17,292 nt of DNA from a bacterium (lineage in GTDB: Bacteria > SM23-31 > JAUVVT01): assembly GCA_030616165.1 (NCBI GenBank), contig JAUWXV010000055.1, positions 1 through 17,292 of the forward strand, given 5' to 3'. Made by a program: the position numbers and the translations under genes. The notes below the pieces were generated by a model that was not told where the DNA came from, did not search any database, and was given only the letters and a program-made list of their open reading frames with translations. This document shows, in pieces, positions 1 to 15,103 of this stretch. Numbering within the stretch: position 1 is the stretch's first letter; each line of letters opens with the position of its first letter.

Positions 1-1256
1 GGCCGAATATTTTATTTATTTTAGCCGATGATTTGGGTTATGGTGACCTTGGTTGTTATGGCCAGAAAAGAATCAAGACTCCCAACATAGACAAACTATC
101 GGTTGAGGGGATGCTTTTCACCGATTGCTATGCTGGCAGTACAGTTTGCGCCCCCTCACGCTGCTGTCTTATGACTGGACTTCATACCGGACATGCCAGG
201 ATACGTGGGAACGCACGGCTGCCAATTCTTCCTGAAGATGTTACTGTAGCCGAGGTTCTAAAGGATGCAGGATACACAACAGGTATTGTCGGTAAATGGG
301 GATTAGGAGAACCAGAGTCAATTGGCATTCCAAATAAAAAAGGATTTGATTACTGGTTTGGCTATTTGAATCAGAGACACGCTCATAACTATTACCCAAG
401 TATACTCTGGCAGAATACGGAACTATACTTTCCCGAAATTGGCGAGTATTCACATGACCTGTTTACTCAGGAAGGATTAAATTTTATTAAAAATAATAAG
501 GATAATCCATTTTTCCTCTATCTTGCATATACTATACCCCATGCAAATAACGAATTAGGCAGAGCAAAAGGTAATGGTATGGAGGTTCCAAGTGATGAGC
601 CATATTCAAACGAATCCTGGCCTCAGGTAGAAAAGAATACCGCAGCAATGGTCACAAGAATGGATAACGATATTGGAAAAATAATGAAACTTTTGAAGGA
701 ACTCGGGTTGGATGAAAACACAATTGTGTTTTTCAGCAGTGATAACGGCCCTCATCAGGAGGGTGGACACGACCATAATTTTTTTGATAGTAATGGACCG
801 CTGAGGGGCTATAAACGTGACCTATACGATGGTGGTATCCGTGTACCAATGATTGTACGCTGGCCAGGGCATATTAAAGCCGGGGCTGTTAGCGAGCAGG
901 TATGGGCGTTCTGGGATTTTCCACATACTGCCGCTGAAATTGCCGGAAAAAAAATGCCGACCGGGTTAGACGGGATTTCTGTACTTCCTGCACTTCTTGG
1001 AAATAAGCAAAATGACCATGAATATCTATACTGGGAATTTCATGAACGCGGTCTCACTCAGGCTGTTCGTATGGGAAATTGGAAGGGAGTGCGTCCTGGA
1101 TTAAATAAGCCAATCGAACTTTACGACCTCAAAACAGATATAGGAGAGAAAAACAACATCGCCGAAAAGCACTTAGATATAGTGAGAAGAATTGAAGAAA
1201 TTCTTAAAAATGCCCGCACTGATTCAAAGGAGTTTCCGATAAGAGTGAGAAAATGA
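1..1256 (+). CDS. Sulfatase (arylsulfatase A-like, S1 family), 5' end outside window
   Basis: This is a formylglycine-dependent sulfatase that hydrolyses sulfate esters, probably from a glycan, outside the cytoplasm. The frame is open to the left edge. The first full codon is at position 3 and the reading begins PNILFILADDLGYGD, the classic sulfatase N-terminus, so the TTG at 33 is not the start and any signal peptide lies upstream. Numbering from position 3, the visible metal ligands are D9-D10, and the formylglycine Cys49 lies in CAPSR at 147-149. GKWGLG is at about 97-102, a possible catalytic His in TIPH at about 180, and the SDNG metal motif at about 246-249. GKWGLG replaces the commoner GKWHLG; I recall this form in a subgroup of bacterial arylsulfatases. 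About 418 residues are visible, close to full length. Substrate cannot be assigned. It is the first of three sulfatases in the same direction. Confidence 0.93.
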   Translation, partial: PNILFILADDLGYGDLGCYGQKRIKTPNIDKLSVEGMLFTDCYAGSTVCAPSRCCLMTGLHTGHARIRGNARLPILPEDVTVAEVLKDAGYTTGIVGKWGLGEPESIGIPNKKGFDYWFGYLNQRHAHNYYPSILWQNTELYFPEIGEYSHDLFTQEGLNFIKNNKDNPFFLYLAYTIPHANNELGRAKGNGMEVPSDEPYSNESWPQVEKNTAAMVTRMDNDIGKIMKLLKELGLDENTIVFFSSDNGPHQEGGHDHNFFDSNGPLRGYKRDLYDGGIRVPMIVRWPGHIKAGAVSEQVWAFWDFPHTAAEIAGKKMPTGLDGISVLPALLGNKQNDHEYLYWEFHERGLTQAVRMGNWKGVRPGLNKPIELYDLKTDIGEKNNIAEKHLDIVRRIEEILKNARTDSKEFPIRVRK

Positions 1257-1461: not shown

Positions 1462-3123
1462 ATGCCACAAAAAATGAAACGGCGGGAATTTATGGGATTA
1501 ATGGGTGCAGGGATGGCGGCGATGACACTGCACGGATGTATCTCTAAAGAGAAGATTGCAAAAGAAAGACCGAATATTCTCTGGATAAGCTGCGAAGATA
1601 TAAGCCCAGACCTCGGTTGTTATGGTAATACGGATGTATCTACGCCTAATATTGATAAACTTGCCAGTCAGGGAGTACGATATTCGAACGTGTTTACAGT
1701 AGCACCTGTGTGTTCACCTAACCGCTCCGGGATGATAACCTGTATGTATGCCACAACAATAGGTTCTATGCATATGCGTACCAAGCCGAGTCTTCCCAAA
1801 TATAATCCTCCAGGCATTAGTTACGAAACTGTTCCTCCTCCCTATGTAAAGTGTTTTACAGAATATCTCCGTGCTGAGGGATATTATTGTACAAACAGAG
1901 TCAAGACAGATTACCAGTTTACTTCTCCCATTACTGCCTGGGATAGAAATAGTAGAAATCATGGTGATTGGAATGGAAGAGCAGAGGGACAGCCGTTTTT
2001 CTGTGTAATTAATTACGAAGAAACACATGAATCCAGAATTCGTATTCCACTTGACAAGGATCCTATTATAAATCCGGACAGCGTGACGCTTCCACCTTAT
2101 TACCCTGATACTCCCATTGTTCGCAGGGATTGGGCACGGTATCTTGATAATATCGAAACATTAGATAAACGGGTTGGCGAAACTCTTGAACGGCTGGATA
2201 ATGACGGACTTTCAGAAAATACTATTGTTTTTTTCTGGAGCGACCACGGACGCGGCTTACCACGCGCAAAACGATTGTTATACGATGCAGGGACTCATGT
2301 TCCTTTGATTGTTCGCTGGCCTGTTGTGATTGAACCGGGTACTGTACGTGATGATATGATAAGTTCCATAGACTTTGGAGCTACGGTTCTTTCGATTGCC
2401 GGCGTTGAGGTCCCATCTTATATGCAGGGACATGCCTTCTTAGGAGAACAAAGGGGTAACCCCCGCGAATATGTTTTTTCACAACGTGACCGCATGGATG
2501 AAAAATATGACATGATTCGTGCGGTACGTGACAAAAGATTTAGATACATACGCAACTTTCAGCCTGAAAAACCCTATGCACCGCCTATGGAATACGCCGA
2601 CATGATGCCTACATTACAAGAGATGCGAAGACTTTCAGCAGAAGGTAAGCTCAAGGGAGCTCAGAAACTTTTTTTACAAAAAACAAAGCCAAACGAAGAA
2701 TTATATGACACAACAGTTGACCGGCACGAAATCAACAATCTCGCTGATAATCCAAAGTATAAAGATGTACTCGAACGGATGAGAAAAGTTCTTGACAATT
2801 GGATGGAAGAGACAAATGACCTTGGCCGTATTCCGGAGAAAGAACACATGGAAAATACGTGGCCCGGCGGTGTTCAGCCGAAGACTGCCGCACTAACAAT
2901 AAATCCTAATGGGGGAACATTTGATGGTTCTGTTACTGTTAAAATAACCTGCCCAACTGAAGGTGCATCGATTGCCTATACCACTGAAGAGGGCGAGGAT
3001 TCCCATTGGCTTATTTATACGAAGGAAATTAAACTGACAGAGAGCACCAGACTTAAGGTACGGGCTATACGTATTGGTTATGCAGAAAGTCCCGAAGTTC
3101 AGGCTGATTTTGTAATCGAATAG
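1462..3123 (+). CDS. Tat-signal lipoprotein sulfatase, heparan N-sulfatase-like, with C-terminal chitobiase/FN3-associated-type domain
   Basis: Probable sulfatase acting on N- or O-sulfated amino sugars. ATG 1462 is preceded by a strong AAAGGAGG at 1448-1455. The N-terminus has RREFMG (residues 7-12), a hydrophobic stretch and a lipobox-like LHGC ending at Cys26, indicating Tat export and lipid anchoring. Sulfatase motifs are ISCEDISPDLGCYG (about 42-55), the formylglycine Cys84 in CSPNR (Asn replaces the usual Ser; the Cys-x-Pro-x-Arg core is kept), TNRVKTDYQF (about 144-153) and FFWSDHGRGLPRAKR (about 257-271). This set resembles the heparan N-sulfatase (sulfamidase) group rather than ordinary arylsulfatases. 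Residues about 475-553 form a separate beta-rich domain (NPNGGTF, IAYTT, LKVRAI) like the chitobiase/FN3-associated C-terminal modules. The 553-residue length fits a sulfatase plus that module. Subfamily and substrate are inference. Confidence 0.92.
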   Translation: MPQKMKRREFMGLMGAGMAAMTLHGCISKEKIAKERPNILWISCEDISPDLGCYGNTDVSTPNIDKLASQGVRYSNVFTVAPVCSPNRSGMITCMYATTIGSMHMRTKPSLPKYNPPGISYETVPPPYVKCFTEYLRAEGYYCTNRVKTDYQFTSPITAWDRNSRNHGDWNGRAEGQPFFCVINYEETHESRIRIPLDKDPIINPDSVTLPPYYPDTPIVRRDWARYLDNIETLDKRVGETLERLDNDGLSENTIVFFWSDHGRGLPRAKRLLYDAGTHVPLIVRWPVVIEPGTVRDDMISSIDFGATVLSIAGVEVPSYMQGHAFLGEQRGNPREYVFSQRDRMDEKYDMIRAVRDKRFRYIRNFQPEKPYAPPMEYADMMPTLQEMRRLSAEGKLKGAQKLFLQKTKPNEELYDTTVDRHEINNLADNPKYKDVLERMRKVLDNWMEETNDLGRIPEKEHMENTWPGGVQPKTAALTINPNGGTFDGSVTVKITCPTEGASIAYTTEEGEDSHWLIYTKEIKLTESTRLKVRAIRIGYAESPEVQADFVIE

Positions 3124-3446: not shown

Positions 3447-4949
3447 ATGAATGTTAATCAAAAAATTACAAATCAGGGAGAAAGGTATAATCGTAGGAAT
3501 TTTCTAAAGAAAACAGCATTGACTGCAATAGCAGCCCCGTGGATTATGCGATTTCCTAACATCTATGCCAAATCAAATGAAAAAAGAAATATCATTTTTA
3601 TTTTGAGTGACGACCATCGTTATGATGCGATGAGTTGTTTGAATCATCCAATTGCACAAACACCAAATATGGACCGTCTATTAAAGGATGGAATCCACTT
3701 TAAAAACGCATTTGTAACAACGTCACTTTGTTCGCCAAGCAGGGCTTCCATACTGACCGGTCTTTATGCTCATAAACATGGAGTCCTCAATAACAGAACC
3801 CTTATTCCGAAGGGTACCCTTACCTTTCCAGTCGAATTGTCCAGGGCAGGATATAGAACCGGGTTTGTCGGGAAATGGCATATGGGGGGTTCAAACGATA
3901 ATCCAAGACCAGGATTTGACCGATGGGTTTCTTTGCGAGGACAGGGGCAGTGGTTTAATCCTTTATTCAATATAGATGGAATCCGTCAGAAGCCAGATGG
4001 ATATGTTTCTGATTTAATTACCGAGTTCTCGCTGGATTTTGTGAAGAAAAATAAAGACCGTCCTTTTTTCCTCTATATGTCACATAAGGCAGTGCACGAA
4101 GATTTCACTCCTGCGCCCCGTCATAAAGATGAATTTAAACATGTAACTATGCCCCGTCCTATAACATTTCCGGATACTGATGAAAACTATCAGGATAAGC
4201 CTGATTGGGTGAGAAGACAAAGGAAAAGCTGCCATGGAATTGACGGATTATCGTATACCCATAATATTGACTTTGACGGCTTTAACAGAAGATATGCTCA
4301 ATGTCTTTTAGGATTGGATGAGAGTATCGGTGCATTGACCGATTTACTGGATAAGGAGGGATTATTAGAAGATACATTTATCATATATATGGGTGATAAT
4401 GGTTTTCAGTTTGGTGAACACGGTCTCATTGATAAGAGGGTTATGTATGAGGAGTCAATTCGTGTTCCGTTTTTTGTACACTGTCCGTCATTGACAAGTG
4501 GAGGGCGCGTTGTAGAAAAAATAGTCCTCAATATCGATATCGCTCCCACTCTTATAGATGCTGCTGATGTTCCTGTTCCTTCATCAGTACATGGACATTC
4601 TTTCTTACCATTAATCAAGGGCAGTGGAGTAGATTGGCGAAAAGATTTCTTATATGAATATTTCTGGGAGCGAGCATATCCGATGACCCCAACGATTCGA
4701 GGCCTGCGTACAGAAAAATATAGTTACATCAAGTCCTACGGCACATGGGATAAATATGAATTATATGATATTGAAAACGACCCTTATCAGACTAAAAATC
4801 TATTGGGTGATGTTTTTCCTCCAAAAAGCGGCGGGACGCCAGAAGGCAATATCAGTGACCCCGAATTGAAAAAACTTGTGAATGGTTTTGAAGAAAGAAT
4901 GAGTCAAATTATCGAGGAAACTGGCGGGAATCTTAAGCCTCAATGGTGA
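3447..4949 (+). CDS. Tat-exported sulfatase, N-acetylglucosamine-6-sulfatase-like
   Basis: Sulfatase predicted to act in the periplasm or at the surface. The N-terminus carries a Tat signal (RRNFLKK at 16-22, then a hydrophobic stretch to about residue 36). Metal and catalytic motifs are complete: ILSDDHRYD (about 52-60) with D55-D56, formylglycine Cys95 in CSPSR (codon 3729-3731), GKWHMG (142-147) with Lys143 and His145, His217 in KAVHEDF, and GDNG (316-319). The stretch RPGFDRWVSLRGQGQWFNP and the histidine-rich segment after CSPSR (AHKHG) recall the glucosamine-6-sulfatase/mucin-desulfating group. The C-terminus has the usual LYDIENDPYQTKNL strand seen in this family. The length of 500 residues is normal. 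It is the last of the three sulfatases and is followed by a convergent gene. The specific substrate is inference. Confidence 0.93.
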   Translation: MNVNQKITNQGERYNRRNFLKKTALTAIAAPWIMRFPNIYAKSNEKRNIIFILSDDHRYDAMSCLNHPIAQTPNMDRLLKDGIHFKNAFVTTSLCSPSRASILTGLYAHKHGVLNNRTLIPKGTLTFPVELSRAGYRTGFVGKWHMGGSNDNPRPGFDRWVSLRGQGQWFNPLFNIDGIRQKPDGYVSDLITEFSLDFVKKNKDRPFFLYMSHKAVHEDFTPAPRHKDEFKHVTMPRPITFPDTDENYQDKPDWVRRQRKSCHGIDGLSYTHNIDFDGFNRRYAQCLLGLDESIGALTDLLDKEGLLEDTFIIYMGDNGFQFGEHGLIDKRVMYEESIRVPFFVHCPSLTSGGRVVEKIVLNIDIAPTLIDAADVPVPSSVHGHSFLPLIKGSGVDWRKDFLYEYFWERAYPMTPTIRGLRTEKYSYIKSYGTWDKYELYDIENDPYQTKNLLGDVFPPKSGGTPEGNISDPELKKLVNGFEERMSQIIEETGGNLKPQW

Positions 4950-5222: not shown

Positions 5223-6611
5223 TTATGTCAGTTTATCAACATTCTCTGCGACCTTCTGAACAGCCTCTATAATATCGTCCATATCTTTTTTGGTGCCGAG
5301 GAATCCCATTTTCCCGCGCAAGGAAAGCCTTTCTTTTTCTATTCTGTTGACAACCAGTGATTGTAAGGATTCTCTGTATTTTCTAAGTCGGGCTTTGGAG
5401 AACGATGATTGAAATGGACGTGAATTAAGATGTTCTTCTACCATTGCTTCCTTATGCATCCCTTCTCCATACGGTGGTCTGATTTGTCCCCCTGAAATGA
5501 TTGGAAAACCTTCTGCTCGAACTGCCTCTGCAAACTTTGATGCAGGAACATTTTTAAAATATTCTTTATTATAATCTAATCTAAGACTAATATGTGTGAT
5601 TTTTGTATTTTCGGAGTATGTCTTTGCTTTTTTAATACCTGGAATTTCTGTTAATTTTTCCTCTATATATTGTCCATTTCTTGTACGAGTCTCGTGCTGT
5701 TTTACAAAATGTTCAAACTGTGATAAAAGAACGGCAGCCTGAAATGCGCTCGCTCGATAATTAGAGCCAGGATAAGGAGAACCTCTTAATTTTCTTTGAG
5801 GGTCCCTTCCGTTATTTATGAATGCCCCACATCTGCGCATAAGTTCCTCATCACTTCCGATTAAAGTACCTCCTTCACCACAAATAAGAGGTTTCCCAGC
5901 CTGATGGCTGAAACAGCCTGTGGCACCGAATGTGCCGACTTTTTTGCCGTCCACTTCCGCTAAATGTGATTGGCAGGCATCTTCAACAACAGGAATATTG
6001 TATTTGTTTGCTATGGACATAATTTTTACTATATCACACGGGAATCCACCCAGATGAACAGGGATAATTGCTTTTGTGTCTTCTGTTATAGCCTCTTCAA
6101 CAAGGTCAGGGTCTATTAAACCGGTTTCGGGGTCAATATTGACAAATATGGGTAATGCATGTATATCGAAAATAACATTAATAGTTGCGATAAACGTGCT
6201 TGTTGTTGTAATAACTTCATCACCGGGACCTACGTCGAGTACCTGCAGAGAAGTAAAAAGAGCGTTAGTCCCTGCATTTGTCATAAAAGCGTATGGTACA
6301 TTATTGGCTTTTGCCCATTTTTCTTCATACTGAACGGTAAGCTCTGATGGAGTCTTGTTATATTCTGACCACCTGCCGCCTTTAAGAACATCAATAAGGG
6401 CTTTCTCATCAGTTTCATCGTAAATTGGCCAGGAAGGAGGAGTGTAGCGTTTTTCGCGAACTGGTTTTCCACCAAGTATTGCAAGGGCAGATGATTTTTT
6501 AACGATATTCCCATAAAGAGAACTTGACACACCAGCGGTTAAGGCAGCCCCGGCTAACCCTGCTGAAGTTTTCTTTATGAATGAGCGACGTGTTAATGGA
6601 TATTTTTTCAT
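5223..6611 (-). CDS. Tat-signal DegT/DnrJ/EryC1/StrS-family PLP aminotransferase
   Basis: Fold-type I PLP enzyme of the sugar aminotransferase family, which transfers an amino group from glutamate or glutamine to keto-sugars or related cyclic ketones. I start it at ATG 6611 because TGAGG lies 6 bases upstream; the longer frame to 6638 would need TTG. This gives 462 residues against roughly 370-400 for cytoplasmic relatives, the difference being an N-terminal Tat signal (TRRSFIKK then a small-residue hydrophobic stretch, about 1-34). Visible family features are the LGGKPVR opening, TNAGTNAL, the PLP-contacting Asp211 in VVEDACQSH, and Lys240 in CFSHQAGKPLICGEGG, the expected Schiff-base lysine. 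The active site looks intact, so the protein is probably functional. Export is odd for a PLP enzyme; Tat would allow folding with cofactor first. Such Tat-tagged relatives occur in Planctomycetes and allied genomes as I recall. Substrate unknown. Confidence 0.9.
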   Translation of the reverse strand: MKKYPLTRRSFIKKTSAGLAGAALTAGVSSSLYGNIVKKSSALAILGGKPVREKRYTPPSWPIYDETDEKALIDVLKGGRWSEYNKTPSELTVQYEEKWAKANNVPYAFMTNAGTNALFTSLQVLDVGPGDEVITTTSTFIATINVIFDIHALPIFVNIDPETGLIDPDLVEEAITEDTKAIIPVHLGGFPCDIVKIMSIANKYNIPVVEDACQSHLAEVDGKKVGTFGATGCFSHQAGKPLICGEGGTLIGSDEELMRRCGAFINNGRDPQRKLRGSPYPGSNYRASAFQAAVLLSQFEHFVKQHETRTRNGQYIEEKLTEIPGIKKAKTYSENTKITHISLRLDYNKEYFKNVPASKFAEAVRAEGFPIISGGQIRPPYGEGMHKEAMVEEHLNSRPFQSSFSKARLRKYRESLQSLVVNRIEKERLSLRGKMGFLGTKKDMDDIIEAVQKVAENVDKLT

Positions 6612-6622: not shown

Positions 6623-6638
6623 TGATTATAAATTTCAA

Positions 6639-7094: not shown

Positions 7095-8708
7095 TCAAGT
7101 TTTTTCCACCCAAATGGGACTGGACCATGCTAATTGACCATTAGCCTGTATCACCCGAATATAATACCAATCAATACTTCCTGAGAGTTGTTTATCAATA
7201 ATATTAAATTCGGTTTTAAAATGTTCTGAAAATACAAGAGGATGAATCAAAAGGGATTCATCCGGGAAAGGGCCGGTAAAAAAAATGTCATTCTTTTCTT
7301 CAAATTCTTTTAACAATTTATTAATTACCATTTTAGTTGGTTTATTAATGGTTAAGGATAATTTGGTTTCTGGAGTTCCTGAGATATTGAGTACAACGGC
7401 ATTTGTTGGTTTCTCTGCAAATGCCTGCTGACGGGAAGTATAGGATTTAATGAGACAAGTATTTTTTGTTTGTTCTTTTATCAGGTTCCTGCGTGATTCT
7501 GAGAGAGGACCGGATTGAAAACAAGGTTGAATGTCGTTTATTTCGCCATTAGATATCTCTACTTTAATTTCCCAGTCGCATATACGGGACATATTTAAAT
7601 CTGCCCATGGACCCCAGCCGAATTCGATTCGAAGTAACATTTGTTTATTCCAACTGTAGCGGGAGAGCTTTCTATCCATTGGAAAGTCTCTATATATGAG
7701 TTGATTATTTTTGATTACCTCGACTCGTTCTATTTTATCCCAGCCTGAAACTCTAATATACATATCTCTTTCAGTTGAAAAAGGAATTTCTTCACCCATA
7801 AAATGACCGTTAAGTTTAAAATTCAGGTTGATTCTATCACCTGTAACACCATATGTTCGCCGTTTTCTGACTGCATTTAGGATAGATTCCCGCGATAAAT
7901 CTTCTGCTATCACTGCAGCAAGACCTTCCCCGTATGCACCAGGATATCCAAGATGGTCATCTGTGTTGGCTATCACTCCGATGCGGTGTCCCGAAACTAA
8001 GGCGTACTGCATTGTGTTCTTTGTCAAGCATCCGCCCATAGAATGTCTGATATATTGGTAGGGAGCATCGTCTCTTTCTGCGTTTCCGTGCTCCGAATAA
8101 ATTTCAAGAACTGGAGACACCTCCGAATCTAAAAAGTCAAAATTTGCACCTCGATGCCCCGTGCGATATCCGGGGTGATGTGGGATAAGAAGAGCACCCT
8201 CCTTTCTGGCAAATTTTTGAAGAGATTTTATATCATTAAAAATAATTAAAGGTGCATAATCATAAGGAAAAATAATAAAGTAATCACCGTAGTAACTTGA
8301 GTGCCACTCATAAGCAGGGAAGGTAATAAATTCTCCTGTTTTGTTATAATCTGCACAAATCTTTTGTACTTCATTCCAGCGATTTTTTGTTTCTTCGAAT
8401 CCATTGACCCATTTCAGGTGTTTATCTCCTTGCATTTGAGGCATATCGTGCCACTGGGAGTGGGGAGTAAAGGCAAAAAAATCTAAATGACTTTTAGCAA
8501 TCTCGAATGTCCGCTTCAAGGAACCTTTTGCATAACCAACACTATTATGATTATGAATGTCCCCCCAGAAAATGTTGAATTTTTCTGATGTAGATTCATT
8601 TTTGGAAATCTTTTTAGAATATGTAATTTTTTTATTTGTCAATTTAGAAGCCAAAAAACAAAAAAAAGATTTTTTTAACCACATTCTTCGGCTAATATGT
8701 TTATTCAT
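7095..8708 (-). CDS. Exported PHP/DUF3604-like metallohydrolase
   Basis: Probable metal-dependent hydrolase of the PHP/CehA-McbA/DUF3604 type. ATG 8708 follows GGGGAGA with a short spacer. The N-terminus has SRRMWLKKSFFCFLA (6-20), a Tat-like signal with a rather short hydrophobic part. Metal motifs are in the usual PHP order: WGDIHNHN (48-55, with His52 and His54), FTPHSQWHD (80-88), LLIPHHPGYRTGH (173-185), EIYSEHGN (202-209) and ANTDDHLGYPG (247-257). Residues about 290-537 are beta-rich and contain no motif I recognise, fitting the C-terminal sandwich of DUF3604-type proteins. The natural substrate of these exported members is not known to me; a phosphoester or similar ester is only a family-based guess. 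It sits head-to-head with the beta-barrel gene at 8948. Confidence 0.8.
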   Translation of the reverse strand: MNKHISRRMWLKKSFFCFLASKLTNKKITYSKKISKNESTSEKFNIFWGDIHNHNSVGYAKGSLKRTFEIAKSHLDFFAFTPHSQWHDMPQMQGDKHLKWVNGFEETKNRWNEVQKICADYNKTGEFITFPAYEWHSSYYGDYFIIFPYDYAPLIIFNDIKSLQKFARKEGALLIPHHPGYRTGHRGANFDFLDSEVSPVLEIYSEHGNAERDDAPYQYIRHSMGGCLTKNTMQYALVSGHRIGVIANTDDHLGYPGAYGEGLAAVIAEDLSRESILNAVRKRRTYGVTGDRINLNFKLNGHFMGEEIPFSTERDMYIRVSGWDKIERVEVIKNNQLIYRDFPMDRKLSRYSWNKQMLLRIEFGWGPWADLNMSRICDWEIKVEISNGEINDIQPCFQSGPLSESRRNLIKEQTKNTCLIKSYTSRQQAFAEKPTNAVVLNISGTPETKLSLTINKPTKMVINKLLKEFEEKNDIFFTGPFPDESLLIHPLVFSEHFKTEFNIIDKQLSGSIDWYYIRVIQANGQLAWSSPIWVEKT

Positions 8709-8947: not shown

Positions 8948-9571
8948 ATGAAAAAGATAATATTCGTGATTATTATTTTGCTTTTAAGCGTTCATTTTTC
9001 CTTATTTTCTGAAGAGCTTATTAAGAAGGAATATGGTTCGCCTGGAACCTACGAGTTAAGTCCGATTATAGGGGCGTTTGTTTTTGAAGATAGAACTTAC
9101 GACAATTCATTTATGCTTGGTGTTAAATCGTTAATCAACATTACAAAAAAATATGCCTTAGAAGGAGAAGTCGGGTTTTCTCCTACTTCGTTCAATTATC
9201 AAATACATGGAAGTCCTTTAAATAAGGAAGACCTTAAAATATATAATTACTGCTGCAATTTTATTTACAAATATCCTTTATCTCAATCAATATATTCATA
9301 CGGGACATTTGGAGTTGGAGGTGTATCATTCGTTCCAGAAACAGCAAATTCGAATACGGACATTTATTTTAACTTTGGAGGGGGGATAAAAATTTCATTT
9401 GGGAAAAATAAGGCTTTTAGACTTGATATACGTCAGTATGCTCCATCTTTAGATGTAAGACTTTTTTCACCAAGAAGTGGTTTCCCTTATATTTCACCCG
9501 ATACCTCACCTAAAGCAAAAGTTCAAAAAATACTACAATTTAGTGTTGGAATTATTTTCTCATTTGAATAA
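8948..9571 (+). CDS. Secreted outer-membrane beta-barrel-like protein, unknown function
   Basis: A 207-residue protein starting at ATG 8948; an in-frame TTG at 8918 would put ten residues ahead of a ready-made signal peptide and is unlikely. MKKIIFVIIILLLSVHFSLFS (1-21) is a clear Sec signal peptide. The rest alternates short amphipathic strands with glycine- and aromatic-rich turns (LEGEVGFSP, YSYGTFGVGGVSF, YFNFGGGIKISFG) and ends in QFSVGIIFSFE, the pattern of an 8- to 10-strand outer-membrane barrel such as the OMP_b-brl group. No enzymatic motif is visible. The Shine-Dalgarno is weak (TAGAAAA). A small barrel of this type is often structural or of unknown role; nothing links it directly to the sulfatases. 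It is followed 67 bp later by a tRNA gene. Confidence 0.75.
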   Translation: MKKIIFVIIILLLSVHFSLFSEELIKKEYGSPGTYELSPIIGAFVFEDRTYDNSFMLGVKSLINITKKYALEGEVGFSPTSFNYQIHGSPLNKEDLKIYNYCCNFIYKYPLSQSIYSYGTFGVGGVSFVPETANSNTDIYFNFGGGIKISFGKNKAFRLDIRQYAPSLDVRLFSPRSGFPYISPDTSPKAKVQKILQFSVGIIFSFE

Positions 9572-10456: not shown

Positions 10457-11581
10457 ATGAATATTAAGAACTTATACCATACCTTGACAATCCTTCCTTT
10501 GCTTTACTTTTTTATTGGATTTTACTGTGACAGAAAAGATGATATAAAAAATATCCAACTTGTCGATTATCAACCACAACCAATGCTTGTAACAAAGGAA
10601 ACATATGTTCCAAAAGCAAGATATCCTGCAATAGATGTCCATAATCATTTACGCCATATTGTAGAATCAGGAGAAGATATATCTAAAATTGTAAGCATCA
10701 TGGATGAATGTAATGTCAAGGCAGTTGTAGATTTAGACGGTGGATTCGGAGAGAATCTTGATAAACATTTAAGAGTACTAAAAGAACCTTATCCTGACAG
10801 GTTTATTATTTATGCAAGAATCGACTGGAGTAGAATTAACGAACCGGATTTCTCCGAATATGCAGTGAACCAGCTTGAAGAAGCAGTTAGAAAAGGTGCA
10901 CAGGGATTAAAAATTTCGAAGAGTCTTGGTCTTGGAGTCGAGGAAGCAGACGGCAGATATCTGAGAGTTGATTCACCCAAGTTAGACCCGATTTGGGAAA
11001 AATGCGGTGAACTTGGTATTCCCGTGGAGATACATACTTCTGACCCGGCTGCATTTTTTACTCCTCTTGACAAGCATAATGAATGGTTGAGCATTCTTGT
11101 GAAATATCTTAACTGGATGTTTAACAAACCGGAATTTTACTCCCGTGAGGAGCTTCACAAACAGAGAAATAATGTTATTGCAAAGCATAAAAACACAATC
11201 TTCAGCGGCGCACACATGGGAAATAATCCTGAAAATTTGCAACAGTTAGGAGAATGGCTGGACAAATATCCCAACTTTTATGTAAATATAGATGCGCGCC
11301 TTGCCGAGCTTGGAAGGCAGCCTTATACTGCAAGGAAATTTATTATAAAATATCAGGACAGAGTGATGTTCGGAACAGACGGATACTTCGATACTCCGAT
11401 AAATGCGGAAATGTACCGTACTCACTGGCGATTCCTTGAAACTGATGATGAATATATGGATATTTCAAAAAGCCATACTGTGACTCCGGATTGGAGAGTT
11501 TATGGTCTTTATCTCCCTGATGAAGTCTTGAATAAATTATATTACCTCAATGCTAAAAAGATGATTCCGGGTATTAAATAA
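10457..11581 (+). CDS. Exported amidohydrolase_2-family (COG2159-like) metal-dependent hydrolase
   Basis: TIM-barrel metal-dependent hydrolase or decarboxylase of the amidohydrolase superfamily. ATG 10457 follows AAGGTG at 10444-10449. The N-terminus has a hydrophobic stretch (about 8-23) ending GFYC at Cys24, a possible but atypical lipobox, so the protein is probably exported or anchored. Family motifs are in order: AIDVHNH (58-64, His62 and His64), GLKISK (150-155), VEIHTSDP (190-197, His193), SGAHMGNNPE (250-259, His253) and VMFGTDGYF (303-311, Asp308). These are the expected metal ligands and catalytic Asp, so it looks active. Length of 374 residues is normal with a short leader. The substrate is unknown; relatives are often annotated only as amidohydrolase 2. 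It is bracketed by the 62-bp direct repeats and stands 338 bp before the next gene. Confidence 0.88.
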   Translation: MNIKNLYHTLTILPLLYFFIGFYCDRKDDIKNIQLVDYQPQPMLVTKETYVPKARYPAIDVHNHLRHIVESGEDISKIVSIMDECNVKAVVDLDGGFGENLDKHLRVLKEPYPDRFIIYARIDWSRINEPDFSEYAVNQLEEAVRKGAQGLKISKSLGLGVEEADGRYLRVDSPKLDPIWEKCGELGIPVEIHTSDPAAFFTPLDKHNEWLSILVKYLNWMFNKPEFYSREELHKQRNNVIAKHKNTIFSGAHMGNNPENLQQLGEWLDKYPNFYVNIDARLAELGRQPYTARKFIIKYQDRVMFGTDGYFDTPINAEMYRTHWRFLETDDEYMDISKSHTVTPDWRVYGLYLPDEVLNKLYYLNAKKMIPGIK

Positions 11582-11919: not shown

Positions 11920-13467
11920 ATGAAATATTACCACAAAAGAATCTTTAATTATAAATTAATTTTAATTATTACCCTACTCTTCTTATTTTCAAGAGGCTTT
12001 GCTGCTGAAAGTTCTACAATTAAAATTCTGTTTCCGAGGGCTTTTTCAGTAGCTACGGACGATATGGGCTGGAACGAGGGTGGTTCTCTTGGAAACTCAG
12101 GAGGTCCCTGGAGGGTCGGATTCAGGAGACATTTTGATGTGCGTGATTATAAACCGTTAGTGGAAATAGGAAAAGCTGTCGGAATGAGATTTCAGGGGGC
12201 TTTTATTTTAGCGGAAATGGATAGACTAAATGTCTGTACAAAGTATCCTACTACTACATTGGATGGGAAAAACTGGGACAATTCGGCGAATGTGGGTCCA
12301 ACGCAGTTTGAGGTGATGAATTATGTTAAAGATAATGCAGCATATCTGGAGTTTGGTATTCACGGCGTCGGTCATGAAAACTGGGATAACGGGAAACGGA
12401 CCCGGGCAGAATGGTATGATATTGAAAATGATAAGCCCCGTTCTATAGAAGATAATTTGGAACATATGAAATGTTTTAAGGAAATTATGGCTCAGTATGG
12501 CTGGACACCGGAAAACGGACATTCTTTTCCGGAGAGTTTTGTTCCCTGCTGTTTTGCTTATTATTGGAATCCCGATGGAGAATACAGTACAGGTAAATTG
12601 ATGCATGAAAATGGAGTAAAATATGTAAATACAGTATATAGTTATATAACCGAACTCAATCCGCCGTTTGAAATCGGCGGTGGTTTTGACCATGGCGTAC
12701 TTGTCCTCGACAGACACAGTTTTGGTAATCCATGGAATGAACCTGCTGCTTTGCCAACGAAGCCTGTTGAAGAATATGATACGGATTTTATTGAAGCTCA
12801 TTGGGCAAACTGGCTTGCTACGGATGATGAACAGCAGCCAAGATTAAATCAACAGTGGATAAGATTTTTCAAGAAAATTCAGGCTCATCCGGAGCATTAT
12901 CTGGCAAAAAATACCGAACAGCTTAACTCTCAGTGGCTTTATAATCGCTATACAACTGTAACAGAAAAGACAGAAGGTAAAGTAACGATCGATAACAGAA
13001 ATATGCCTGAAGAATCTTATAAGTATGATTTATTGGGGAATATGGTTCTTGTTGTCAAATTAGAGGAAGGTTGGCATGTTTCGGAAGCTAATTTAAACAG
13101 AAAACCAGTATCGGCATATTTTGAAGATGAAGGATATGGATTTATATATCTTCCTCCGTTAAAAAAAGAAGTTTATCAATTGGAATATAAAATTGGCAAA
13201 AATTTAATGCCGCAATTTATTAACAATACCGGAACATATAATGTCTATGATGTTGAAATTACAGAGCAGGAAATGAAATTTGACCTGAAAATGTACGGAA
13301 CACAGGTTGTCAAAGTAAAGTGTCCCAAACCGGTTTCGGTCAGCTCGTCCAACCGGTATCTTAACATTCTTACTCAGGAGTATAATTCAGAAAACAAAAT
13401 GCTTCTTCTTGAAATATATGGACGCGATATGCAGGGAGAGGAAGGAGAGATATTAATAAAATTTTAG
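11920..13467 (+). CDS. Secreted protein with polysaccharide-deacetylase-like (NodB-like) metal motifs
   Basis: A 515-residue secreted protein. AAGGAG precedes ATG 11920 by 8 bases, and residues 1-29 form a Sec signal peptide (hydrophobic 12-25, likely cut after GFAA). The mature N-terminus reads LFPRAFSVATDDMGWNEGG (Asp47-Asp48), followed by FGIHGVGHENW (His148 and His152, an HxxxH). A DD pair and an HxxxH are the metal ligands of polysaccharide deacetylases, so a de-N- or de-O-acetylase-type barrel (about 35-330) is plausible, though overall similarity to known families was not recognised. Residues about 350-515 are beta-rich, like an accessory sandwich domain. It starts a tight run with the next two genes (gaps of 49 and 88 bp). 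The role in the glycan pathway is inference; it could also be a glycoside hydrolase relative. Confidence 0.7.
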   Translation: MKYYHKRIFNYKLILIITLLFLFSRGFAAESSTIKILFPRAFSVATDDMGWNEGGSLGNSGGPWRVGFRRHFDVRDYKPLVEIGKAVGMRFQGAFILAEMDRLNVCTKYPTTTLDGKNWDNSANVGPTQFEVMNYVKDNAAYLEFGIHGVGHENWDNGKRTRAEWYDIENDKPRSIEDNLEHMKCFKEIMAQYGWTPENGHSFPESFVPCCFAYYWNPDGEYSTGKLMHENGVKYVNTVYSYITELNPPFEIGGGFDHGVLVLDRHSFGNPWNEPAALPTKPVEEYDTDFIEAHWANWLATDDEQQPRLNQQWIRFFKKIQAHPEHYLAKNTEQLNSQWLYNRYTTVTEKTEGKVTIDNRNMPEESYKYDLLGNMVLVVKLEEGWHVSEANLNRKPVSAYFEDEGYGFIYLPPLKKEVYQLEYKIGKNLMPQFINNTGTYNVYDVEITEQEMKFDLKMYGTQVVKVKCPKPVSVSSSNRYLNILTQEYNSENKMLLLEIYGRDMQGEEGEILIKF

Positions 13468-13516: not shown

Positions 13517-15103
13517 ATGAAAATTAATAGAAGAAATTTTCTTAAGGCTGGAGGCGCAGCAGCGTTAATGGGAGGTTTAAATATAAAATCAACTTACGGA
13601 TATAATCTTTCTGCAGCAGATATACCATCACATAGATGGGACGGGTATGATTTTGGACCGGGTCCAAAGGTAACAGACCGCCTGAATCAAGGTTCTTTTG
13701 GTATCGAGCAGGATCAGGGATGGAGAACTATTGAAAGTACTTCACCTTCAGATAAACCGGTTAAGAATTTTGGTCTTGGCTTGGTAGCTTATACCTGGGA
13801 AGAAAATGGACCGTCATTGGCAGCAAGAAAAGGTGAGGAAACCCTTGAACAACATGTCGAAAAATTAGCAAGTCTGCCATTTGTGGATATTTTGTATATA
13901 CGCTGTGATTGGCGCAATGTTCAAAAAAAGCCGGGTTCACTTGATTTAGACCCGATTTGGAAGCTTACTTTTGATGCTGCAAGGAGTTACAATCTTAGAG
14001 TAGGGTTACGTGTGCAGCTTTCAAGTCCGAATTTTCAACCGAAGCAGTTTGCGCTGCCTGATTTTGTTAAAGAAAAGGTTCCTATGGTAAATATTGGTAA
14101 GAGAAGAGGCAGAAATCAAAACTTTGATTACTATGAACCAAGATATGATCATCCTGAATTTCAAAAAGCATTTAAGGAATTGAATGAGCTGCTTGCTGTG
14201 GAGTTTGATGACAATACTTTAATGGAATTTATGGATTTAATGATGTATGGATTCTGGGGTGAAGGACATACTAACGACTGCCGGAATCCGTTTCCTGATT
14301 ATCTTACTGCGGAAAAAACTTTTGTTGAAATGACTCAACTTCAACTTGATGCTTGGAAAAAAGTTCCTCTTGCCGTGAACACACAGCCGGATATAAGTAA
14401 TACAGGTAACCGGCAAGTGATCGATATGTCTGTTCGTGCCGGATGCTGGCTGCGGTCGGATAGTATTATAAATGATGAACCAATACAAATAGAACGCCTT
14501 TCAAATCGTCCTCCATGGCTCGCTGTTATTATGGAGCAGGGCGGGAACAGGCATTACAGAATTGATAATATACAAACTGATGGAGCCGATGTGAATTATA
14601 AGGAAAAATCCATGCTTCATGTGCTCGATCTTGGTGCAAATTATTGGTCATTGTGGACTGAAGCGGACAATCTTCGCAAATATCACGAAATATATCCTAA
14701 CGGATTTAATACCCTTCAAAGAAGGATGGGATACAGAGTCCGCCCGTCCTGGGTTTGGCAGAGAAAACGCTACGGAACAAGCGAGTTAGTTGTAGCATTT
14801 GCCAATGACGGGGTAGCCGGTGTTCCGGGTATTCTCAGAGTCTACCTTGAAAGTCTTGACAGAAAATTCAGGATTGGAGGAAGTCTCGATCCGGGGCATC
14901 CTTACGGCGGCAGATTGAGGCAGGCTTCTTTTATTTTGCCGAAAGATATAGAGGGTAAAAAAATGAAAATATTTGCTGAAATTGAAACTAATGGAATTCG
15001 GCGCCCGGTTCAATGGGCTTGTGCGCAGCCTCTCAATCCAGACGGGTCTTTTAACATACAGTTGAGGACCTATGACGAAAGAGGCTGGCGAAAAGGGATT
15101 TAA
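13517..15103 (+). CDS. Tat-signal TIM-barrel glycoside-hydrolase-like protein
   Basis: A 528-residue exported protein starting at ATG 13517 after AAAGGAA. The N-terminus NRRNFLKAGGAAALMGGL (4-21) is a textbook Tat signal. The body looks like a (beta/alpha)8 barrel: strand-helix units such as VDILYIRCDWRNVQKKPG (123-140), NLRVGLRVQL (159-168) and LMEFMDLMMYGFWGEGH (235-251), with Glu249 in WGEGH a good candidate acid/base. The pattern 'R..W..V...PG.LDLDPIW' plus 'WGEGH' recalls the DUF4832/GH42-like glycosidase barrels, but I cannot assign a GH family. Residues about 420-528 are a beta-sandwich. It follows the deacetylase-like gene by 49 bp and precedes the lipoprotein by 88 bp, so all three are probably co-transcribed. 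Function is most likely glycan cleavage outside the cytoplasm. Confidence 0.7.
   Translation: MKINRRNFLKAGGAAALMGGLNIKSTYGYNLSAADIPSHRWDGYDFGPGPKVTDRLNQGSFGIEQDQGWRTIESTSPSDKPVKNFGLGLVAYTWEENGPSLAARKGEETLEQHVEKLASLPFVDILYIRCDWRNVQKKPGSLDLDPIWKLTFDAARSYNLRVGLRVQLSSPNFQPKQFALPDFVKEKVPMVNIGKRRGRNQNFDYYEPRYDHPEFQKAFKELNELLAVEFDDNTLMEFMDLMMYGFWGEGHTNDCRNPFPDYLTAEKTFVEMTQLQLDAWKKVPLAVNTQPDISNTGNRQVIDMSVRAGCWLRSDSIINDEPIQIERLSNRPPWLAVIMEQGGNRHYRIDNIQTDGADVNYKEKSMLHVLDLGANYWSLWTEADNLRKYHEIYPNGFNTLQRRMGYRVRPSWVWQRKRYGTSELVVAFANDGVAGVPGILRVYLESLDRKFRIGGSLDPGHPYGGRLRQASFILPKDIEGKKMKIFAEIETNGIRRPVQWACAQPLNPDGSFNIQLRTYDERGWRKGI

Follow-up and report, generated by a model that had tools for sequence, protein, structure and literature searches.

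A clade of DegT-family PLP enzymes with Tat leaders points to possible, previously unrecognised amino-sugar chemistry outside the cytoplasm

DegT aminotransferases are usually regarded as cytoplasmic enzymes that act on nucleotide-activated sugars. The window considered here, the whole 17,292-nucleotide stretch of DNA that was analysed (contig JAUWXV010000055.1), encodes a DegT protein that begins with a twin-arginine (Tat) leader, and so raises the question of whether an enzyme of this family is sent out of the cytoplasm and, if so, on what it would act there. The main reading developed below, which we judge to be probable, is that the protein is exported, is active and has a non-nucleotide substrate. 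The features of the window that bear on this reading are as follows.

3..1256 (+): sulfatase, truncated at its 5' end by the contig edge (PF00884 E 3e-55, CxPxR motif)
1462..3123 (+): sulfatase with RREF leader and C-terminal CHB_HEX_C_1 (PF00884 E 8e-35, PF13290, CxPxR)
3447..4949 (+): sulfatase with RRNFLKK leader (PF00884 E 2e-57, CxPxR), convergent with the DegT gene
5223..6611 (−): Tat-leader DegT-family PLP enzyme, 462 aa (PF01041 E 1.2e-75, TAT_signal_seq, AlphaFold model)
5892..5894 (−): Lys240 codon, PLP Schiff-base lysine (alignment to BtrR)
5979-5981 (−): Asp211 codon, PLP-pyridine aspartate (alignment to BtrR)
6510..6611 (−): Tat leader MKKYPLTRRSFIKKTSAGLAGAALTAGVSSSLYG, 34 codons; cleavage before N proposed from the paralogues; RR invariant in 25/25
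7095..8708 (−): CehA/McbA-like PHP metallohydrolase with SRRMWLKK leader SRRMWLKKSFFCF (NF038032 E 4.9e-18, below cut-off; DUF3604 fragment)
10457..11581 (+): exported Amidohydro_2 protein (PF04909 E 6e-24), of a family that recurs near Tat-DegTs

The DegT gene and its surroundings

The reading frame at 5223-6611 opens with an ATG at 6611 and encodes 462 residues with no internal stop; an alternative in-frame ATG at 6623 would add the residues MRFF, and the paralogues favour the start at 6611. PF01041 is the top Pfam match and covers the full length of the protein (255 bits against a curated cut-off of 19.8), with Aminotran_5 reaching 22.7 bits only, and the search covered 22 matches in the genome of origin. 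In the AlphaFold model (mean pLDDT 84) confidence is high from around residue 41 onwards (residues 41-50 have a block mean of 91), and the structure is that of a fold type I aminotransferase, with Z scores of 45-47 to DegT structures. The enzyme core starts near this residue, after MKKYPLTRRSFIKKTSAGLAGAALTAGVSSSLYG and an N, and the poor pLDDT (<50) at residues 17-39 is as expected for a leader ahead of an enzyme. The lysine and aspartate of the PLP site, which the earlier note had described as kept, do align with those of BtrR. The window protein is a full-length DegT-fold PLP enzyme, predicted from its conserved residues to be catalytically competent.

The N-terminus displays a twin-arginine motif, a hydrophobic stretch and a small-residue cleavage region, and scores 19.3 bits with NCBIfam TAT_signal_seq (TIGR01409; cut-off 16.7), in agreement with the Tat signal proposed in that note, and the leader is shared clade-wide. 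A TatC gene is found in the same genome (E 3e-64) and in nearly all of the checked genomes that carry the clade, the exceptions being L026 (none) and L029 (a partial gene). Predicted Tat export of the window DegT is well supported by the motif throughout the clade, the genomic TatC and the exported gene neighbours. A chance Tat-like N-terminus was considered and ruled out, on the ground that the motif does not vary within the clade. No exported DegT protein is described in the full-text literature searched, the coverage of which was partial and is no proof of novelty. Export of folded, cofactor-loaded PLP enzymes by the Tat system is nevertheless established for PvdN and PtaA, both active in the periplasm and the latter a transaminase (PMC6206403).

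Within the window, the three plus-strand sulfatases converge on the DegT gene and hence lie outside its operon, and sulfatases occur at 4/49 loci of the clade compared with 1/65 leaderless loci, a difference that is not significant; the case for them as functional partners is therefore weak. The metallohydrolase at 7095-8708 shares its strand with the DegT gene, lies 484 bases upstream of it, and is a possible, if speculative, functional partner. An exported protein with a PHP-like 'DFHIHTVFS' motif is encoded near another Tat-DegT of the same genome (L203). Amidohydro_2 proteins such as that at 10457-11581 are found at 8/49 clade loci versus 1/65 leaderless loci. Further along the window, three large proteins with export-type N-termini are encoded on the plus strand (11920-13464, 13517-15100 and 15192-17294), the first two of which have no informative Pfam match (TAT_signal only, on 13517-15100), and no relatives of the three were found beside other Tat-DegTs. 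The inference that can be made at the level of the family is stronger than anything that the window alone shows.

A leader-bearing clade in several phyla

The genome of the window encodes at least six full-length DegTs with a Tat leader, in addition to leaderless paralogues, and a scan of a genome collection, in which the window's phylum is represented by six genomes, found close relatives with a Tat leader in Bacteroidota and Planctomycetota. As judged by sequence, the leader-bearing group is one that spans at least three phyla, namely these two and the small phylum to which the window belongs; the clade also takes in single MAGs with the provisional labels Campylobacterota and Acidobacteriota. 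The clade is uncommon, with matches beyond 1e-110 in 6/395 sampled Bacteroidota genomes and beyond 1e-120 in 13/392 sampled Planctomycetota genomes, some of which pass these thresholds by way of leaderless DegT copies.

In a maximum-likelihood tree of DegT cores, from which the leader was left out, all leader-bearing rows fall in one 40-row clade (SH-aLRT 99). Six rows of this clade are without a called leader, comprising five copies cut by a locus edge and L050, which starts MQRRQFVSL. An HMM of the core alone, again without the leader, separates the two groups at about 420 bits, complete matches above this value all having a Tat leader and those below it none, apart from locus-edge truncations and the one short leader of L050. 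No homologue starting after the leader was found inside the clade, the leaderless ones being sisters outside it that begin directly at the core. The twin arginines, Lys240, Asp211, Gln214, Ser235 and Glu246-Gly247 are invariant in the 25 aligned members, among which the remainder of the leader varies.

The window protein has an Asn at position 284, in an N-Y-R motif near the PLP site (codon 5760-5762, minus strand), and 17/25 clade members have Lys there. This difference may divide the clade functionally and counts against the main reading, with the window protein itself keeping Asn. A separate observation concerns two of the loci, L014 and L015, which are the two ends of the 29.9-kb contig C249 (G000): one leaderless DegT runs off one end and resumes at the other, which suggests a circular contig (a plasmid, or a loop made in assembly).

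The ceramidase-like partner and other recurrent neighbours

When the neighbours of the leader-bearing homologues were examined, as the earlier note had advised, the recurrent partner proved to be encoded outside the window. This commonest neighbour is a ceramidase-like protein (PF04734), the gene for which lies within 1.5 kb of the DegT gene at 17/25 leader-bearing and 4/55 leaderless loci (Fisher 4e-8, an upper estimate of specificity since some phyla in the leaderless set may not have the PF04734 family). The two genes often overlap, several by 4 bases; at L034, for example, the partner opens with an ATG at 9383 and the DegT stop lies at 9386. Gene orders in the window's genome and a sister genome include CER-CER-DegT-DegT (C59), DegT-CER (C94) and CER-DegT-DegT-CER (G031 C241), where CER is the ceramidase-like gene. 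There is no ceramidase-like gene beside the window copy, which counts against the main reading.

The model of the partner (pLDDT 86) matches neutral ceramidase 2zws with a Z score of 38.7, the next unrelated entry having a Z score of 4.3, and the match to PDB neutral ceramidase by sequence is at E 2.6e-35. Homology to PF04734 falls short of proving amidase activity, and this too weighs against the main reading. The partners divide into several divergent subfamilies, which suggests that the pairing with DegT arose, or was retained, on more than one occasion.

A signal peptide is present in all 30 callable ceramidase-like partners of Tat-DegTs, whereas 14 of the 17 partners of leaderless DegTs (from Lentisphaerota, Omnitrophota and one Planctomycetota genome) start at the core without one. 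The resulting table (30 exported and 0-1 not, the L248 entry being cut by a contig edge, versus 3 and 14; p ~1e-8) was initially of interest as pair-level proof of export. This use of it, including the p value, was dropped after a control: unpaired ceramidase-like proteins in genomes with leaderless DegTs are also mostly without a signal peptide (Lentisphaerota), so that the agreement holds for lineages rather than for pairs. At that level, the predicted compartments are consistent with export and with the two enzymes sharing one compartment, and give no pair-level proof. One locus, L041, has a leaderless DegT adjoining an exported partner and counts against the main reading. At L057 (7908-11748) a leaderless operon encodes a DegT, a Gfo/Idh protein and a ceramidase-like protein, with signal peptides absent, and Lentisphaerota relatives are arranged likewise; this is apparently a cytoplasmic version of the gene set.

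The proposal that the DegT works on an amino-sugar glycan held in part, with GH20, NagA/NagB, NagP-like and MurQ-like genes being found near Tat-DegTs in some Bacteroidota, but the sulfatase argument on which it was founded is weak. MurQ-like etherases lie beside a Tat-DegT at L037 (369-1193), L038 (5780-6604) and L040 (9359-10174). In each of these three genomes the DegT-adjacent etherase is an additional, divergent copy (E 1e-88 to 1e-93, the other copy matching at 1e-112 to 1e-115); given 18 etherase copies in 12 multi-megabase genomes, finding three of them within 8 kb of the DegT locus greatly exceeds what chance would give. The divergent etherases may act on another ether-linked amino sugar. 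A secreted beta-propeller-like repeat protein without a Pfam match occurs at 10/49 clade loci and 0/65 leaderless loci (L032:10661-12028, with relatives in L025, L034, L035, L037, L039, L045, L248, L258 and L260). In the sister genome, an exported Amidohydro_3 protein that resembles N-acyl-D-amino-acid deacylases is encoded upstream of two Tat-DegT genes (L208:224-1810), and is a second putative type of deacylase beside Tat-DegTs.

Proposed function and comparison with known enzymes

The closest solved relatives of the window DegT, by both sequence and fold, are RbmB, BtrR, Fic25 and AHBA synthase, the substrates of which are small non-nucleotide molecules, and no cut-off was reached among the nucleotide-sugar transaminase equivalogs (ArnB, WecE, PseC, RfbH and others; best 170 bits versus 375, NF008687, with every other one falling far short). 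Together with the amino-sugar genes in the neighbourhood, these results favour an extracytoplasmic transaminase of an amino sugar or keto sugar in free form, or of a cyclitol; the free keto sugar that had been suggested earlier is plausible in view of the non-nucleotide substrates of the closest structures. In such a scheme, the DegT would fold around PLP in the cytoplasm, be exported by Tat and then transaminate a small substrate that carries no nucleotide (an amino sugar, a keto sugar or a cyclitol). The putative zinc amidase of neutral-ceramidase fold, which bears a signal peptide and is encoded alongside in most relatives, would strip an N-acyl or amide group and the DegT would turn the amine so released into a ketone, or work in the opposite direction, with exported oxidoreductases or amidohydrolases acting next and, in Bacteroidota, the products of amino-sugar uptake and catabolism genes as well.

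That this amounts to an extracytoplasmic pathway of several phyla, in which N-acylated amino sugars or aminocyclitols are processed, with an amino co-substrate, by a ceramidase-fold amidase that Sec exports and a DegT that Tat exports, and which has a leaderless, cytoplasmic counterpart in Lentisphaerota and Omnitrophota, is a proposal in which our confidence is a little short of even. The catabolic order, with the amidase first and the DegT after it, is the likeliest one but is put forward more tentatively still. An exported clade with working PLP chemistry would bring transamination into the breakdown of glycans outside the cell, and would pose the question of which amino donor or acceptor serves there. 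To our knowledge neither is known in the periplasm for any DegT enzyme, which counts against the main reading. The conserved pairing yields a testable substrate hypothesis, that of N-acylated amino sugars or cyclitols, and also offers a candidate role for bacterial ceramidase-like proteins.

The direction could be biosynthetic, with the DegT aminating an extracytoplasmic keto sugar supplied by an exported Gfo/Idh enzyme and the ceramidase-fold enzyme N-acylating the product for an envelope glycoconjugate. The aminating direction is the usual one among known members of the DegT family, and neutral ceramidases can run the reverse reaction, N-acylation. Gfo/Idh genes, found near 14/49 clade loci, and a 3-keto-disaccharide hydrolase gene 4.3 kb from one Tat-DegT copy of the window's genome make extracytoplasmic keto sugars plausible. 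However, Gfo/Idh genes are no commoner there than beside leaderless DegTs (26/65; no significant enrichment) and the loci have a catabolic look, with SusC/SusD, GH20, NagA/NagB, NagP-like and sulfatase genes, and we consider the biosynthetic direction unlikely.

There is a smaller chance that the leader does not function, or holds the protein at the membrane, and that the enzyme works in the cytoplasm, as the modest Tat HMM score (19.3 versus 16.7 bits) and the resemblance of some other clade members to Tat lipoproteins might suggest; against this stand the fixation of RR in 25/25 members within a leader that otherwise varies, the restriction of the leader to one clade with leaderless sisters that begin at the core, and the signal peptides of the ceramidase-like partners. 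Equally improbable is an exported PLP-binding sensor or binding protein, or PLP chemistry other than transamination (dehydration or oxygen-dependent deamination), for which the dehydrases among the relatives (ColD and E1, both among the structural matches), the Lys in place of Asn284 in 17/25 members and the lack of an evident amino acceptor outside the cytoplasm could be cited, but which is disfavoured by the retention of Lys240, the strict conservation of the PLP residues and the transaminases as nearest relatives. In the dehydrase branch (ColD, E1) a His stands at the position of the PLP lysine; the title of PDB entry 3bb8 is 'E1 Dehydrase H220K Mutant'.

Compared with BtrR/BtrS and RbmB (2c81, 5w71, 5w70), L-glutamine:2-deoxy-scyllo-inosose aminotransferases that act on a free cyclitol and no nucleotide sugar, the window DegT has the same fold and PLP residues and is ~29-30% identical over ~390-400 residues, but those enzymes are leaderless, cytoplasmic and devoted to antibiotic biosynthesis, and we know of no linkage between them and ceramidase-like genes. 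Fic25 of Streptomyces ficellus (8gyh/8gyi/8gyj), a DegT-fold protein of ~31% identity (Z 46), has a bound substrate adduct that is an N-acetylated small molecule and no nucleotide sugar; it differs in being without a Tat leader and in serving the biosynthesis of an antibiotic pathway. NtdA, a 3-oxo-glucose-6-phosphate aminotransferase of the DegT family (4k2b, E 2e-31), the substrate of which is a sugar phosphate and no nucleotide sugar, is a weaker match and is likewise cytoplasmic and leaderless. The partner shares with neutral ceramidase (2zws, 4wgk) its fold (Z 38.7 and 35.8), PF04734 membership, the HTHSGP motif and His/Glu/Tyr candidates for the zinc site, but is ~20% identical, shorter and encoded adjoining a DegT gene, and its substrate is likely to be other than N-acyl sphingosine. 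The window DegT, which has a Tat leader and the PLP residues, would resemble PvdN, a class V PLP enzyme, and PtaA, both of Pseudomonas, if it is exported. It differs from both in its PLP family, in their pyoverdine substrate and in the pyoverdine-type contexts in which they are described (PMC6206403).
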